The notes under the pieces were generated by a model, which was not told where the DNA came from, made no database searches, and was given only the letters and a program-made list of their open reading frames with translations. A program made the position numbers and the translations under genes. 33,343 nucleotides of DNA from Prevotellaceae bacterium (GTDB taxonomy: Bacteria; Bacteroidota; Bacteroidia; Bacteroidales; UBA932): the NCBI GenBank assembly GCA_031274595.1, contig JAISPX010000030.1:1-33343 (forward strand). The letters run 5' to 3'. Position 1 is the stretch's first letter. Each line of letters begins with the position of its first letter. Positions 16,073-25,732 of the stretch are shown in pieces.

Positions 16073-18124
<2,052 letters not shown>

Positions 18125-18422: not shown

Positions 18423-18467
18423 CCTACAAATAGGGATTTCCTACGTCATCAACAGTGAATACTTTTG
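18423..18467 (+). promoter_or_regulatory. Promoter of the siderophore locus with alternating CCTA/TAGG operator
   Basis: TACTTTTG (18460-18467) is a good -7 element. Where a -33 TTG would be expected (near 18438) there is instead CCTA-CAAA-TAGG-GATTT-CCTA (18423-18443), three alternating half-sites. An activator or iron-responsive regulator may bind here. The leader to ATG 18572 is about 100 nt. Confidence 0.5.
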
Positions 18468-18571: not shown

Positions 18572-20746
18572 ATGATTAAGTTGAGATTTTATTATTGTTT
18601 ATTATTTATTTTGGTTTTCACTCCTGCGTTTTCGCAAAATACTCAAACCATTTCATCCGAAATTGATACGGCAAACAGCGTAAATTTAGAATCCGTTTTT
18701 GTTATCGGGAAAAGCAAGGTTAAAGAGATTAACGAATCGGCTTACAATGTGGTAAGCATCGACACCAGACCATTACATAATACTACATTGAGTTTAACAC
18801 AAACGCTCGACCGTATTTCGGGAGTGAAGATAAGAGAAACAGGCGGAGTAGGCTCAGACTCTCAAATTTCAATCAACGGCTTTAGCGGACGGCATATCAA
18901 AATATTTTTTGACGGAATACCGATGGAAGGTCTCGGTTCTTCGTTTCAGTTAAACAACATGCCTGTTAATCTGTCAGAACGCATAGAAGTTTACAAGGGA
19001 GTTGTTCCTGTTGAGTTTGGCTCTGATGCATTGGGCGGCGCTATTAACATAGTTACCAAACGAACAAGAAGCACATACGCAGATGTATCTTATGCTTACG
19101 GCTCGTTCAATACTCACAAATCAAACGTGAGTTTCGGTCATACAACGAAAAACGGATTTACATTTCAGTTAAACGCATATCAGAATTATTCGGATAACAA
19201 TTACAAGGTTAAAACAAAACTGCTTGATGTGAACAATGGCACATATTCCAACGAAGAATTTTGGTTCAAAAGATTTCACGACAATTATCACAACGAAGCA
19301 TTGATTGCAAAAGCGGGAATTGTAAATAAACCGTGGGCTGACAGACTTTTGATAGGAATTACTTTAAGTCAGGAAAAGGCAGACATACAAAATGCCAATA
19401 TCATGCAAATTGTTTTCGGAGGCAAAGAACGTAAAGCCCGAAGTATTATACCTTCATTGACCTACGAAAAAAGAAATCTTATAGTGCAAAATCTGAATTT
19501 TTCGTTAAATGCAACTTACACCAATGTCAGAAACAACAATATTGATACTCTTGCGCGTCAATACAACTGGAAAGGCGAATACAGAACAAAAGGAGCAAAA
19601 GGCGAAGGTCAATATTCGCTAAGCGAATTTGATGCTCAAACTGCATACGTAACCGCAAATCTGAATTACAAACTAAGCGATAAACATTACTTTGCCGTCA
19701 ACAATCTATACAGCAACTACACACGCAAAGCCACAGATGCGGTAGCCAATTCCGAAAACAGCACTGAGGCAACTTTTATGAAACGCGTGAACTCAAAAAA
19801 CGTTTTGGGATTTTCGTACCTGTTTGAACCAAGCAAACGATGGAATACTTCGGCTTTTTTCAAATATTACGAAGTAAACGTGAAAGGACCCGTTAATGTT
19901 TCCACCTCAACCACCGCCGAATACGAAGAAAGAGAAAAATCATTCAGCACAACAGGATATGGTTTGGTTATGACTTATTTTTTAACCTCTGCGCTTCAAA
20001 TCAAAACCTCGTTTGAAAAAGCATACCGACTGCCTTCGGAGCGCGAACTGTTTGGCGACGAAGTTTTGGAAACAGGAGACGTGGCGCTGAAACCAGAAAA
20101 CAGCAGCAATATTAATCTTAACATCAGTTACAGCAACGTATGGAACAATACTCATTCGGTATATTTTGATGCAGGATTGATATACCGAGATACAAGAGAT
20201 TATATCAGGCGGCAGATAGACCAACGATATGGAGGAGCATCTTATGCAAATCACGGAAAAGTGCTTAACTTGGGTGTTGACTGTGAAGCAAGATATTTTT
20301 ATAAAAACATTTTTTCGGCAGGAGGAAACATAACCTATCAGGACATAAGAAATATGGAACAATACAGCATTGACGGTCGCAAATTGGTTTATTACAAAGA
20401 CCGTATGCCCAATGTTCCGTATCTTTTCGGAAACATAGATGCAGCCTGCAACATACACAATCTGTTGGGCAAAGGAAATGTTTTTTCGATAGGATACAAC
20501 ATGCGATATGTACATTCATTTTTCCGCGACTGGCAAAGCGAAAGCAAAGGCGGCTATATTACTATTCCCGCGCAATTGTCGCACGATATTAATCTAACCT
20601 GCTCGCTCAAAAACGGAAAATATAATGTTTCTTTTGAAATTAAAAACATTGCCGATGCGATGTTATACGATAATTATAGTTTACAAAAACCAGGACGCAG
20701 TTTTCTGGTAAAATTCAGATATTTTTTCTTTAATAATAAATCTTAA
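18572..20746 (+). CDS. xusA: TonB-dependent siderophore receptor, XusA-like
   Basis: 724 residues. The signal peptide ends at AFSQ (residue 22). The protein lacks the N-terminal carboxypeptidase-like domain of SusC. A TonB-box-like LESVFVIGKSK is followed by a plug domain (LSLTQTLDRISGVKIRETGG, GRHIKIFFDGIPMEG, RIEVYKGVVPVEFGSDALGG) and a 22-strand barrel ending in the aromatic LVKFRYFFF. This is the size and form of siderophore, heme or cobalamin receptors. The next genes encode XusB-like and XusC-like proteins, so a ferric xenosiderophore is the best-supported cargo. The gap to the next gene is 12 nt. The family is certain; the substrate comes from context. Confidence 0.88.
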   Translation: MIKLRFYYCLLFILVFTPAFSQNTQTISSEIDTANSVNLESVFVIGKSKVKEINESAYNVVSIDTRPLHNTTLSLTQTLDRISGVKIRETGGVGSDSQISINGFSGRHIKIFFDGIPMEGLGSSFQLNNMPVNLSERIEVYKGVVPVEFGSDALGGAINIVTKRTRSTYADVSYAYGSFNTHKSNVSFGHTTKNGFTFQLNAYQNYSDNNYKVKTKLLDVNNGTYSNEEFWFKRFHDNYHNEALIAKAGIVNKPWADRLLIGITLSQEKADIQNANIMQIVFGGKERKARSIIPSLTYEKRNLIVQNLNFSLNATYTNVRNNNIDTLARQYNWKGEYRTKGAKGEGQYSLSEFDAQTAYVTANLNYKLSDKHYFAVNNLYSNYTRKATDAVANSENSTEATFMKRVNSKNVLGFSYLFEPSKRWNTSAFFKYYEVNVKGPVNVSTSTTAEYEEREKSFSTTGYGLVMTYFLTSALQIKTSFEKAYRLPSERELFGDEVLETGDVALKPENSSNINLNISYSNVWNNTHSVYFDAGLIYRDTRDYIRRQIDQRYGGASYANHGKVLNLGVDCEARYFYKNIFSAGGNITYQDIRNMEQYSIDGRKLVYYKDRMPNVPYLFGNIDAACNIHNLLGKGNVFSIGYNMRYVHSFFRDWQSESKGGYITIPAQLSHDINLTCSLKNGKYNVSFEIKNIADAMLYDNYSLQKPGRSFLVKFRYFFFNNKS

Positions 20747-20758
20747 AATAATATTAAA

Positions 20759-22054
20759 ATGATGACAAAAAAACAAATTAAAAAAGCATTTTTAGCAGGA
20801 TTTATCGGATGTTTAGCCTTATCTTTCGCATCATGCGACAGTAACGAATACAATCCGACTCCTACTATAGGTTCATTTTTTCTGTCGGTTTCAGGCGAAA
20901 CGGCAGAATACATTATCCAAACTAATAATCTGGAAACAGGCAATCTGTCTATCTCCGACAATAACGGAGCGCTTGAAAAATCAGGCTACACATGGATATT
21001 TAACGAAAATCCATCGGTTGCAGTCGGATTAATTTACAATCAGGGAGACCCGGGTGTATGTTTGGCTTATGGAATTAAATCAGACACAACACTGACTGAA
21101 TTAAAACAATTCCAAATCGAATCGCGTTTTACATCCTACGGTTTCTTTGACAAATACGCACTAACCAGCGTTGGTGGAGTAACTCCCGTAGATGAAAGCG
21201 GAAACGCTCTTGTTGATGGCAGCGGAAACGTTCGTTCGGATGGCGCTACTTTCAACTTCTTTGATTTGAAAAATCTTGTTTTGACTTCAAAAACAATTAC
21301 CACATTGAATATTACAGGTAATGGCGATCAGGCAACTTTTTCAGGCATAGTGGATATGGGCAACGGCGAATTTCTTACAGGCATGGTTGTTTCTCAACCC
21401 AAAGCTGCGGGAGCAGGAGGAGGCGCAAGCTCTGGAACGATAACTTATCCCGACAGCGTGTGGGTTGCGGCTTTCGATGCCATTCTAAACCTTAAACGCA
21501 TTTACAGAGACGACAGAATAAGTTACTCGTCGGGACGCTTCCGTTCTCAATATTATTCCCAAATCGGAAAAGCCGACGATGGAAGCGTTTATGTATTTTC
21601 AGGCTCGTATGAAAGCGCAACAACAAAACCCTGCGGTGCTTTGAAAATAAACAAAAATGCAACTGAGTTCGATCCTTCTTACTATTTCAATATAGAGCAA
21701 GAAACAGGCGGTTACAGGTTCAGAAAAGTTTGGCATATTACAGGAAATTATTTCTTGCTTGAACTGTACAACGACTTTACTATTACTACCGAAACTGCGG
21801 CAACTCAATACGGAATAGTAAACATGGGAACACAAAAGTTTTCATGGTTAAGCAACGGTTTCCCTGCCAAAAATCAGATAACAGCCACAGGCTTGCCTAT
21901 GGCTCACGACGGCAAAATGTATTTCCCGATAGTTACACAAGGAAACGACCCTGCAATATATATCATTGACCCTGCAACAGCATCTGCAAAAAAAGGCATA
22001 AGCATAACGGGTGCAAAAACTTTAAATGCAATAGGAAGATTGATTTATCAATAG
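20759..22054 (+). CDS. xusB: XusB-like siderophore-binding lipoprotein (DUF4374)
   Basis: 431 residues with lipobox LSFASC (Cys23, counted from the first ATG). The rest is beta-rich and reads as a propeller of the DUF4374 type: FFLSVSGETAEYIIQTNNLE, TSYGFFDKYALTSVGG, GSVYVFSGSYESATTKPCGAL and YGIVNMGTQKFSWLSNGFP are typical blades. In Bacteroides thetaiotaomicron XusB is a surface-exposed lipoprotein that binds ferric enterobactin for the XusA receptor. A low-complexity Gly/Ala stretch (AAGAGGGASSG) lies about residue 217-227. Two ATGs are tandem at 20759 and 20762; either works. A terminator follows the gene, so xusA and xusB may be made in larger amounts than the two genes after it. Confidence 0.88.
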   Translation: MMTKKQIKKAFLAGFIGCLALSFASCDSNEYNPTPTIGSFFLSVSGETAEYIIQTNNLETGNLSISDNNGALEKSGYTWIFNENPSVAVGLIYNQGDPGVCLAYGIKSDTTLTELKQFQIESRFTSYGFFDKYALTSVGGVTPVDESGNALVDGSGNVRSDGATFNFFDLKNLVLTSKTITTLNITGNGDQATFSGIVDMGNGEFLTGMVVSQPKAAGAGGGASSGTITYPDSVWVAAFDAILNLKRIYRDDRISYSSGRFRSQYYSQIGKADDGSVYVFSGSYESATTKPCGALKINKNATEFDPSYYFNIEQETGGYRFRKVWHITGNYFLLELYNDFTITTETAATQYGIVNMGTQKFSWLSNGFPAKNQITATGLPMAHDGKMYFPIVTQGNDPAIYIIDPATASAKKGISITGAKTLNAIGRLIYQ

Positions 22055-22070
22055 TATTTATACAAATAAG

Positions 22071-22106
22071 GAACAGTAATATATTCAATTATATTGCTGT
22101 TCTTTT
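22071..22106 (+). terminator. Intrinsic terminator (probably partial) after xusB
   Basis: The arms GAACAGTAATATA (22071-22083) and TATATTGCTGTTC (22090-22102) pair over 13 bp with one T-G wobble, loop TTCAAT, then TTTT (22103-22106). The short T-tract and the absence of a promoter-like site before the next gene suggest partial read-through. Confidence 0.75.
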
Positions 22107-22140
22107 AATTACTTAAATAAAAAATAAACATTCCCGCTTC

Positions 22141-22980
22141 ATGCGTAACAACATTTTATCTGTCATTCTGGGATTAACAATATTCTCTGCAAGCCTCTCC
22201 GCTCAAACAAACATTTGCATAGGTAGCAGAGACACGGTTTTTTCCGATATTTTACGCGAAGAGCGAACTTATTGGGTGCATCTTCCCGAAAATTACAGCG
22301 ACAGTATTCAAAAAAAATATCCCGTCATATATTTGCTTGACGGAGATTTGTTTTTTCACGCTCTTGTTGCCTTGCAGCGTTCATATTCGCGCGGACGGCA
22401 ACCTGTCATGCCCGAATGTATTATTGTAGGAATTTTGAATACCGACAGAACTCGCGACCTTACGCCTTCAAAATCATCTTATCGCCGAGACGGGAAAAAA
22501 TACGCCGATGATGAAGAAACAGGAGGCGGAAGCGAATTATTTACGGATTTCTTGACCAACGAGCTTAAACCCAAAATAAATAAAACTTACCGCACAAACA
22601 CTACCAATGTCATTATCGGACATTCTTTCGGCGGGCTGTTTGTTGTGAATACATTATTGCGCCATTCACAATTATTCGACATATACGTCGCTTTAGACCC
22701 GAGTTTTTGGTGGGATAATGGAAAATTGCAACAAGAAGCCGATAAATTACTTGAAACGAAACAATTTAAAAATATAAAATTTTATGTAGGAATTGCGACA
22801 AAAATACGACCCGATGTAAATAACATCAACTCGGATGTCGCACATAATTTTATAGAAAAAACGCTTCCGAAAGCAATAAAAAACGGATTACAGGTTAATT
22901 ATAAAATATTTTCTGACGAAAGTCACGGTACAATTCCTGTACCCGGCATGTCGGACGCATTAAAAATCATATTTCAATGA
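22141..22980 (+). CDS. Secreted alpha/beta-hydrolase, probable siderophore esterase (Fes/IroE/BesA type)
   Basis: 279 residues. A signal peptide (ILSVILGLTIFSASLSAQ) sends it to the periplasm. The core is the COG2819-type esterase fold: RTYWVHLPENY, YPVIYLLDGD, the nucleophile elbow GHSFGG (Ser162), VALDPSFWWDN, and the C-terminal catalytic His in DESHGT (His262). Enzymes of this family hydrolyse the ester backbone of trilactone siderophores such as enterobactin and salmochelin, which frees iron. It overlaps the PepSY gene by 4 nt (ATGA) and lies 86 nt after xusB, inside what is otherwise a xusA-xusB-xusC order. Esterase identity is strong; the siderophore substrate is inferred from location. 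Confidence 0.85.
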   Translation: MRNNILSVILGLTIFSASLSAQTNICIGSRDTVFSDILREERTYWVHLPENYSDSIQKKYPVIYLLDGDLFFHALVALQRSYSRGRQPVMPECIIVGILNTDRTRDLTPSKSSYRRDGKKYADDEETGGGSELFTDFLTNELKPKINKTYRTNTTNVIIGHSFGGLFVVNTLLRHSQLFDIYVALDPSFWWDNGKLQQEADKLLETKQFKNIKFYVGIATKIRPDVNNINSDVAHNFIEKTLPKAIKNGLQVNYKIFSDESHGTIPVPGMSDALKIIFQ

Positions 22981-24260
22981 AAAAAATTATTCGTAAAATC
23001 CATCTTTGGATTGCATTCCCAATCGGAATTATTATAACAATAATATGTCTCACAGGCGCAATTCTTGTATTTCGTCCCGAGATAGAAGAATCTTTGCATC
23101 CCGAACGTTTTTTTGCAAAGGAAACACATGACAAACCAATGAGTTTGACGGAACTGATACCTCTTGTAAATTCACAATTGGAAAACAATTCCATTGCAGG
23201 CGTAACTATTCCCAATAATCCCAAACGCAATTACATAATTAATCTTACCGAAGGATTTCGGGCTGCAGCATACGTAAATCCATACACAGGAAAATTGATT
23301 GAAATCACCAAACCCGAAGGCGGCTTTTTTACCAAAATAATGCAACTTCACCGCTGGCTGCTCGACGATACAAGAAAAATAGGCAAACCTGTTGTCGGAT
23401 ATTCAACGCTTTTGTTTGTAATTATATTGATTACAGGCATTATTATAATTTTCCCGAAAACCCGAAAAAGCCTGAAGCGCATCTTTACAATACACATAAA
23501 CAAAGGCTGGACACGATTTTGGTACGATATGCATATCTCGGCAGGCGTTTATGTTGTTTTGATTCTTCTGGTATTGGCTCTCTCAGGATTAACATGGTCG
23601 TTTCGCTGGTACAGCGCGGGAGTTTACAATCTTTTCGGAGTTGAATTGCCCGCAATGAATCCTAATCACGGAAACAGCAGAGGCGAAAGAACCTCCCAAA
23701 ATCAACAAACCGAGCAAAGAAACAACAGAGGCGAAAGAACCTCCCAAAATCAACAAGCCGAACAAAGAAACAACAGAGGCGAAAGACCTGCTCAAAATCA
23801 ACAAGCCGAACAAAGAAACAGCAGAGGCGAAAGAAACGCCCAAAATCAACAAGCCGAACAAAGAGACAGCATAAGCGAAAAAAACAGGCAAACGACAGAT
23901 TTTTCTCATTGGCAAGAAGTTTTTGAGGAAATAAAAAAGCAGAACCCCGATTTCAAATCCATTAGTATTCAAAACGAGTCGGCATCCGTTTCGCAGAAAC
24001 GCATCTGGGGCAATGCAAGAGCCTCCGACAGATATGCATTCGATGCAAAAACAGGCGTTATAAAAGATTATTTGCCTTACTCAAAACAAGAAAAAGCGAC
24101 AAAAATACGCGGCTGGATATATACTTTGCACGTAGGCGCATGGGGCGGATTATTTTCAAAAATTATAACATTCATCGCAGCCCTCACAGGCGCAAGCCTG
24201 CCAATCACAGGATATTATTTTTTCTGCAAAAAGAGAAAAAAACGGAAAAAAATTGATTAA
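22977..24260 (+). CDS. xusC: XusC-like PepSY-domain inner-membrane protein with repeat insertion (probable ferric-siderophore reductase)
   Basis: 427 residues. Four membrane helices are visible: ~10-32, ~140-162, ~182-204, and ~395-415. PepSY_TM hallmarks include KIHLWIAFPIGIIITI, MQLHRWLLDD, WYDMHISAGVYV and LHVGAWGG; their histidines are candidate heme ligands, as in FoxB-type reductases. Such proteins pass electrons to imported ferric siderophores. The predicted periplasmic loop between helices 3 and 4 carries a four-copy 16-residue hydrophilic repeat (residues 233-296). The start overlaps the esterase stop. XusC is the third component of the Bacteroides Xus system. No terminator was seen in the 146 nt after it, which hold ATTAACCATT-type AT-rich runs. 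Confidence 0.88.
   Translation: MKKIIRKIHLWIAFPIGIIITIICLTGAILVFRPEIEESLHPERFFAKETHDKPMSLTELIPLVNSQLENNSIAGVTIPNNPKRNYIINLTEGFRAAAYVNPYTGKLIEITKPEGGFFTKIMQLHRWLLDDTRKIGKPVVGYSTLLFVIILITGIIIIFPKTRKSLKRIFTIHINKGWTRFWYDMHISAGVYVVLILLVLALSGLTWSFRWYSAGVYNLFGVELPAMNPNHGNSRGERTSQNQQTEQRNNRGERTSQNQQAEQRNNRGERPAQNQQAEQRNSRGERNAQNQQAEQRDSISEKNRQTTDFSHWQEVFEEIKKQNPDFKSISIQNESASVSQKRIWGNARASDRYAFDAKTGVIKDYLPYSKQEKATKIRGWIYTLHVGAWGGLFSKIITFIAALTGASLPITGYYFFCKKRKKRKKID
23673..23864 (+). repeat. 48-bp in-frame tandem repeat, four units plus a degenerate fifth
   Basis: Units begin at 23673, 23721, 23769 and 23817; a decayed copy continues to about 23895. Each encodes 16 residues around RGERxxQNQQAEQR. Units 1 and 2 share nearly the whole DNA sequence, so the expansion is recent. 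It lies inside the PepSY protein gene. Confidence 0.95.
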
Positions 24261-24406: not shown

Positions 24407-25732
24407 TCATTCAAACAACAAATCGTTTTTTGACGTCAAATCATAGCGTTGATTTTCAAAAAAGAATTTTTCTTCGCCAAATGCAGGTTTCAATTGATTG
24501 AACCATGTGGCTTTTGCATCATATTCGGCAAAAAACGGAATATCAACCCACTTGGGATTACGTCCTTGTAAAAAGCGAAGAACGAAAACTTTTTTGCCGT
24601 TTATTTCCTGAATTCCCAAAACCTGTATTTTTCCAGCCGCATCGCTCATGCTTGGTCCGCGCACTGTTCTGCAAATTCCGCTAACCTGACGATAAGCCTT
24701 TCTGTATATTTCCCAACACTTTTCCAAAGGCAATTCAAAATAACGTTTAGCGCCCGTATCGCGCGGAATAAACATGTAATAGGGAATACATCCCAAATCA
24801 ACTTGTTTGCGCCAAAGTTGCGACCAAAGTTCGGGTTTATCGTTGATATGATTCAGAACAGGCGATTGTGTTCTTATTTGCGCTCCTGTGGCTCTGATAC
24901 GCTTGATAGCCTGCTGAACGGCGCTTGTAGATAATTCAACAGGATGATTAAAATGAGCCTGAATCGAAAGGTTTTTACCCGCTTTGTTTATCTGCTCAAA
25001 CAACCGAATTATATCGTCGCTGTCTTTATCGATAAGATAACGATAAGGCCAGTAACTGAGCGATTTTGTCCCGATTCGTATAGTATGAATATGTCTGAAT
25101 TCCTCTTGCAGCAAAGGTTGGATATACATTGCCAGCATCTCTGCCGACATCACCATTGGGTCGCCGCCGGTGAATAAAATATCGGTTACTTCTTTATGCA
25201 CTTTAAGATATTTCAGCAACAAATCGGTTTCTTTCATGGCAAATTTAAGTTCGTTCATTCCCGAAAACTGAGGCCAGCGAAAACAAAATGTACAATAAGC
25301 ATGACATGTTTGTCCCTGACTCGGGAAAAATAATATTGTTTCAGGATATTTGTGCTGAATTCCTTTCAACTTTATCTCGCCAAGATACGGAACATTATGT
25401 TCCTGTCCTGCCGGATTAGGATTAAGCATCAGACGTATTTTTTTAATTACTTCGTCAATTACATGTTTATCGGCATTTTCATCCAAAAGTTTTTTCACAA
25501 TATCATAATGTCGTTTCCTCAGCATGTTACGGCGAGGAAAATTAAGAGTAAATATCGGATCGGTATCCACATTTTCCCAGTCAATCAGTTCATCTACGAC
25601 ATAATTGTTTGTCTTAAAAGGTAAAACTCGTCCTACAATTTCTATATCTTTAATCAGTTCGTTGTTTAAAAGTGATGATTGCGAAATTCTCTTAAAATTA
25701 TGCAGCGAATATGTTTTTATAATTTTCTCCAT
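24407..25732 (-). CDS. KamA-family radical SAM protein (lysine 2,3-aminomutase-like)
   Basis: 441 residues. The radical-SAM cluster is C143-x3-C147-x2-C150 (TCHAYCTFCFRW), followed by the SAM-binding FTGGDPMVM and later the IRIGTKSL and IQAHFNHP strands seen in KamA proteins. A Lys near 368, in SDAAGKIQVLG, sits where the PLP-binding Lys of lysine 2,3-aminomutase is found. Canonical KamA has RYCRHC-like residues around its cluster, so this is a divergent Bacteroidota subgroup whose substrate may not be lysine. It is a lone gene, convergent with the PepSY gene, with no lysine-fermentation genes nearby. The family is sure and the reaction is not. Confidence 0.85.
   Translation of the reverse strand: MEKIIKTYSLHNFKRISQSSLLNNELIKDIEIVGRVLPFKTNNYVVDELIDWENVDTDPIFTLNFPRRNMLRKRHYDIVKKLLDENADKHVIDEVIKKIRLMLNPNPAGQEHNVPYLGEIKLKGIQHKYPETILFFPSQGQTCHAYCTFCFRWPQFSGMNELKFAMKETDLLLKYLKVHKEVTDILFTGGDPMVMSAEMLAMYIQPLLQEEFRHIHTIRIGTKSLSYWPYRYLIDKDSDDIIRLFEQINKAGKNLSIQAHFNHPVELSTSAVQQAIKRIRATGAQIRTQSPVLNHINDKPELWSQLWRKQVDLGCIPYYMFIPRDTGAKRYFELPLEKCWEIYRKAYRQVSGICRTVRGPSMSDAAGKIQVLGIQEINGKKVFVLRFLQGRNPKWVDIPFFAEYDAKATWFNQLKPAFGEEKFFFENQRYDLTSKNDLLFE

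Follow-up and report, generated by a model that had tools for sequence, protein, structure and literature searches.

The window analysed here is a stretch of DNA of 33 343 nucleotides, and corresponds to contig C86 of a fragmented genome of 2.46 Mb that is 87% complete and belongs to a gut-type member of the Bacteroidales. Four open reading frames, all on the + strand as are the operon features described below, form an isolated unit at 18572–24260, where they were first noted. The unit is bounded by ligA upstream (16073–18091) and a radical-SAM gene downstream (24407–25732), both on the opposite strand. In order, the Pfam families are TonB Plug, DUF4374 (E = 8e-71), Esterase PF00756 (2e-26) and PepSY_TM (6e-62). 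Both the reading frames and the families agree with the gene order given in a preliminary description of the locus, namely TonB receptor, DUF4374 lipoprotein, α/β-hydrolase and PepSY membrane protein. The first two genes are separated by 12 nt, while the third and fourth share nucleotides 22977–22980, confirming the 4-nt overlap that had been claimed. The same gene set and order and the same 4-nt overlap are found in independent genomes, in loci L118 (P. distasonis), L111 and L125; in L091 the overlap is 17 nt. Since all three properties recur in this way the arrangement is not due to chance. Elsewhere in the window there is an intergenic tandem repeat at 2488–2631, comprising 6.3 copies of a 23-bp unit.

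The first gene, xusA (18572–20746; 724 aa), encodes a TonB-dependent siderophore receptor with a Plug domain, and adjoins xusB. Its best match in a solved structure is B. theta XusA (9gbc_A, E = 5e-194), followed at a great distance by BtuB (9e-14). The receptor might have grouped with transporters of substrates other than iron, and it does not. The second gene, xusB (20759–22054; 431 aa; PF14298), encodes a DUF4374 surface lipoprotein, predicted to be a siderophore-binding, seven-bladed β-propeller. The cysteine of its lipobox (SFASC; codon at 20834–20836) is invariant in 35 XusB proteins. The model of the protein (pLDDT 87.5) superimposes on Barnesiella XusB (9gar) with Z = 39.3 over 372 residues, and on B. 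fragilis XusB (9hqe) with Z = 37.5. Taken with the PepSY_TM match of the fourth gene, these results bear out the identification of genes 1, 2 and 4 as a XusABC set. The closest relatives of this XusB, with identities of 75% or less, come mostly from metagenome-assembled genomes (MAGs) named Prevotellaceae, Tannerella and Dysgonamonadaceae, a style of naming that may be that of termite-gut MAGs. In two other loci (L050:8360-10979 and L051:8855-11476) tandem DUF4374 genes lie behind a single receptor gene, and the second copy is strongly diverged.

The promoter region of the operon contains a –7 box of the Bacteroidetes type, TACTTTTG (18460–18467), that is read in the sequence and conserved in relatives; the consensus for such boxes is TAnnTTTG. 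A second conserved element, AAATAGGGATTT (18428–18439), begins 144 nt before xusA and is a candidate regulator site. It is conserved in the xusA promoters of the seven nearest relatives, with single substitutions in L053 and L059; in this clade it reads AAATAGG(G/T)ATTT and lies shortly before the –7 box. A search of the complete genome for the element together with the –7 box gave no second exact match, and the inexact matches did not rise above the reversed control. Variants of the form AAATAGG.ATTG precede some other xusA genes (L066, L112 and L122). Expression of B. theta xusABC rises 489–676-fold under iron depletion (PMC10434189), and the window operon may be under iron control too.

The third gene (22141–22980; 279 aa; PF00756) encodes a predicted secreted esterase of the IroE/PfeE type. 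Its N-terminus is hydrophobic, and is followed by a glutamine at position 22 that is invariant in all homologues; there is no lipobox cysteine. The predicted catalytic residues are Ser162 (22624–22626, within GHSFGG) and His262 (22924–22926, within ESHGT), corresponding to the GHSxGG serine and C-terminal histidine of IroE/PfeE-type enzymes, and both are invariant in 15 homologues encoded in xus operons. Whether ranked with the single sequence or with the 15-member profile, the leading solved structures are 3gff, BES, EstA/EstB, PfeE and IroE. The top 11 solved matches to the profile are all siderophore esterases, with scores up to 220 bits, compared with less than 48 bits for feruloyl and carbohydrate esterases. 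A comparison with the structures of IroE and Fes had been proposed as a check on the assignment. In a fold search with the predicted structure of the esterase (pLDDT 88.8), 20 of the best 21 matches are siderophore esterases, with Z from 31.4 to 22.9. These include the IroE-like protein of Shewanella (3gff; 31.4), BES (29.3), Aspergillus EstA/EstB (26–27), PfeE (25), Fes (24) and IroE (23); the sole outsider is an uncharacterised Capnocytophaga protein (4w9r; 25.9). Xylan and feruloyl esterases reach 21.2 at most. The enzyme is thus nearer to the siderophore esterases than to other members of PF00756, and its original assignment as such an esterase, with Ser162 and His262, stands. It is not of the Fes type, which has an extra N-terminal domain and some 400 aa; the alignment with structures of Fes starts only at about residue 159.

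The superfamily PF00756 also includes polysaccharide and feruloyl esterases, which are numerous in Bacteroidales, and the window has a locus of the SusCD type elsewhere. The gene could thus in principle encode such an enzyme and lie in the operon by coincidence. Both rankings are headed by siderophore esterases, however, and in the sampled genomes the subfamily is a single clade confined to xus operons, making this reading highly improbable. Among 393 genomes taken as an even sample of the order three full-length matches exceed 450 bits and a fourth copy is truncated; all four lie in xus operons, and the next match drops to 252 bits. In a tree of 16 xus esterases and 26 others the xus set lies on one side of a branch with values of 96/92; the esterase of L113 forms a very long branch. 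The divergence of the esterases is correlated with that of the XusB proteins (Mantel r = 0.46, with 0 of 2000 permutations as high). An origin among the carbohydrate or feruloyl esterases, a grouping that had been named as counting against the assignment, is rejected on the profile and fold rankings and on the confinement of the clade to xus operons.

How often does a xus locus carry the esterase? This question, raised when the locus was first described, was addressed with 95 distinct xusB loci, comprising the matches from the 393-genome sample and 80 named loci. The esterase is intact in 16, missing in 75 and unscorable in 4, a patchy distribution amounting to about one locus in six; within the even sample it is intact in 3 of 21 hook-type loci. 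The apparent remnant of a decayed esterase gene is seen in one more of these 21, at L033:7646-8101, where a fragment of 151 residues that lacks the catalytic serine region lies between xusB and xusC. On the XusB tree there are at least 15 changes in the presence of the esterase, pointing to an optional component with a history of numerous losses, gains or both. As about five-sixths of the loci lack it, the enzyme is not needed for Xus systems generally. It is present in 16 of 91 loci compared with 0 of 20 loci of the B. fragilis (ferrichrome) type, but with p = 0.07 in a Fisher test that ignores relatedness a link to the hook type is only suggestive.

The nature of the ligand can be approached through the contacts made by XusB. 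In the protein of B. theta (BtXusB) ferric enterobactin is contacted by Asn120 and Ser121 of a hook loop, Arg167/Ser168, Arg255 and Tyr411/Gln413 (Silale et al. 2026, PMC13142918). The Barnesiella protein also binds ferric enterobactin, while the hookless B. fragilis XusB (BfXusB) is a ferrichrome binder (PMC13142918). Using the residue roles from that study, our alignments identify three equivalent elements in the window XusB. The L4 loop Y-N-Q (21035–21043) corresponds to Tyr411/Gln413, the sequence GGGASSG (21416–21436) is a shortened form of the hook at BtXusB 117–123, and the L2 loop GRFRSQYY (21533–21556) corresponds to Arg167/Ser168. Thus Arg167, Ser168, Tyr411, Gln413 and the hook serine are all kept. 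Ser168, Tyr411 and Gln413 are conserved in 16 of 16 XusB proteins from esterase-bearing loci. The hook is shorter than that of B. theta, lacking a downstream segment present in both B. theta and P. distasonis XusB, and Arg255 is not conserved; these two changes leave room for another tris-catecholate, or for some other ester siderophore, as the ligand.

It is therefore possible, though we consider it the less likely case, that the ligand is an ester siderophore other than enterobactin, for instance bacillibactin or a tri-ester hydroxamate of fungal origin (triacetylfusarinine type), with the esterase tuned to it and the mechanism otherwise the same. The altered hook and the loss of Arg255 point in this direction, as do the fold rankings, where BES and the fungal EstA/EstB occupy places 2–9, above PfeE and IroE. 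Moreover fungal EstB, of the same family, acts on the hydroxamate triacetylfusarinine C according to the titles of its structures. Yet most of the tris-catecholate contacts of BtXusB are preserved, in the L2 Arg/Ser, the L4 Tyr/Gln and the hook Ser. A hydroxamate is further disfavoured by comparison with BfXusB, a hydroxamate binder that has no hook (PMC13142918) and to which the window XusB is 17% identical, compared with 28% for Barnesiella XusB.

The alignments also reveal a rearrangement within the family. Residues 158–467 of P. distasonis XusB (L118:6944-8359) align with BtXusB 33–348 (solved chains 9gbc_B/8gex_A), while residues 50–151 align with BtXusB 353–459, both with high score. Barnesiella XusB is collinear, and the model of the window XusB aligns with it over the full length, but with BtXusB over 154–430 only. 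We conclude that BtXusB is a circular permutant of the XusB family, in which about 100 N-terminal residues of the propeller lie at the C-terminus. This would explain a published remark that the position of its hook, in blade 2, is unique (PMC13142918); the string ‘permut’ is absent from the main text of that paper.

The fourth gene, xusC (22977–24260; 427 aa; PF03929), encodes a PepSY inner-membrane protein, a probable heme iron reductase by prediction. His9, His125, His186 and His385, which are putative heme ligands, are invariant in 50 homologues. The gene contains a tandem repeat (Tandem Repeats Finder; 23671–23880) of 4.4 copies of a 48-bp unit, coding for a 16-aa repeat rich in N, R, Q and E. 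We surveyed the corresponding slot in the 95 loci, defined as the gene following xusB, or following the esterase where there is one. It is filled by a PepSY protein in 49 loci, by a Ferric_reduct-like protein (PF01794) in 23 (e.g. L055:7758-8783 and L054:8393-9424), and by a PF01497 binding protein in 7 (L080, L081, L085–L088 and L110, from Sphingobacterium, Parapedobacter and a Flavobacterium MAG); in 10 no member of the three families lies nearby, and 6 are cut off. The esterase accompanies PepSY in five loci and Ferric_reduct in six, but is found in none of the seven with a binding protein, in which the PF01497 protein suggests that the complex is imported by an ABC transporter. There are at least six switches between PepSY and Ferric_reduct on the XusB tree, and the Ferric_reduct version has three histidines invariant in its 23 sequences. 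The Ferric_reduct proteins of L054 and L055, which are unrelated to XusC, also have an N/R-rich stretch like the XusC repeat.

As two unrelated membrane families of heme type fill the slot, its role would be the transfer of electrons to iron, and the interchange supports iron reduction as the task of XusC. Alternatively, the PepSY protein might be a sensor or an assembly factor, with the iron released by the esterase alone. Our search of the literature turned up no direct measurement of reduction by a XusC protein, and XusC resembles the solved PepSY protein 7abw only weakly in sequence (E = 0.0045). Nevertheless we think a role other than reduction unlikely, given the four invariant histidines and the repeated replacement of PepSY by a Ferric_reduct-family protein in the slot. 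If true, this repeated swap would show that XusC reduces iron, and it provides a testable argument for that function; a literature search found no report of it. Overall, Xus operons are probably modular cassettes for iron release, with fixed XusAB, an optional esterase clade and three unrelated solutions at the inner membrane.

In our reading, which we hold to be very probably correct, the operon encodes iron piracy of the Xus type with an optional gene for a release enzyme, providing capture, cleavage and reduction of a foreign ferric siderophore. Substrate, hydrolysis, reduction and iron control are all what we infer from the locus and its relatives. At the cell surface the foreign ferric siderophore would be bound by XusB; the likeliest candidates are catecholates built on an ester backbone, for example enterobactin or salmochelin. 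XusB would then deliver its cargo to XusA, through which TonB would drive import into the periplasm. There the secreted esterase would open the ester backbone, weakening the binding of iron. The presumably heme-bearing XusC could then reduce the iron to Fe(II), which would leave the chelator and enter the cytoplasm through a transporter encoded outside the operon. Precedent is provided by P. aeruginosa PfeE, which hydrolyses ferri-enterobactin in the periplasm, after which reduction is performed by an unidentified reductase (PMC8001512). The sequence of capture, cutting and reduction first proposed therefore remains the best reading, tempered as to the substrate by the shortened hook and the lost Arg255. 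The release route is perhaps not self-contained, as a path for the iron through the inner membrane is also required. FeoB is rejected as the Fe(II) importer, as there is no match to FeoB_C, its C-terminal domain, in the 87%-complete genome, and the FeoB_N matches look like other GTPases; one FecCD importer gene is present on another contig. The same genome yielded no NRPS condensation domain, leading us to reject uptake of a self-made siderophore; a foreign siderophore is thus favoured, though not proved.

The esterase-bearing layout has been published for P. distasonis, whose xus operon encodes a periplasmic esterase with a suggested role in freeing iron through hydrolysis (Silale et al., PNAS 2026, PMC13142918). 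The operon described here is a further case, from a different XusB clade, and extends the pairing of iron piracy and an operon-borne release enzyme beyond Parabacteroides to a wider set of Bacteroidota. The P. distasonis operon (L118, with BDI_3403 the esterase) has the same four genes in the same order with the 4-nt overlap. Its XusB and esterase are about 33% and 46% identical to those of the window, respectively, but that XusB has a full-length hook and belongs to a separate clade. B. theta XusABC (BT_2065-2063) likewise runs from receptor through DUF4374 lipoprotein to PepSY protein, with the main ligand contacts kept; in contrast to the window, no esterase is encoded in that locus, and its XusB is circularly permuted with a longer hook. 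The nearest solved relatives of the esterase itself, Shewanella 3gff, B. cereus BES and IroE, share its fold and catalytic Ser/His, but lie in other gene contexts and are at best 34% identical. In the PfeA/PfeE system of P. aeruginosa, as here, the esterase gene adjoins the receptor gene, and an imported foreign trilactone siderophore is cut in the periplasm (PMC8001512). No lipoprotein partner of the XusB type has been described for it, however, and unlike P. aeruginosa the Xus loci have candidate reductase genes adjoining the esterase, so that a single operon links capture, cleavage and reduction.
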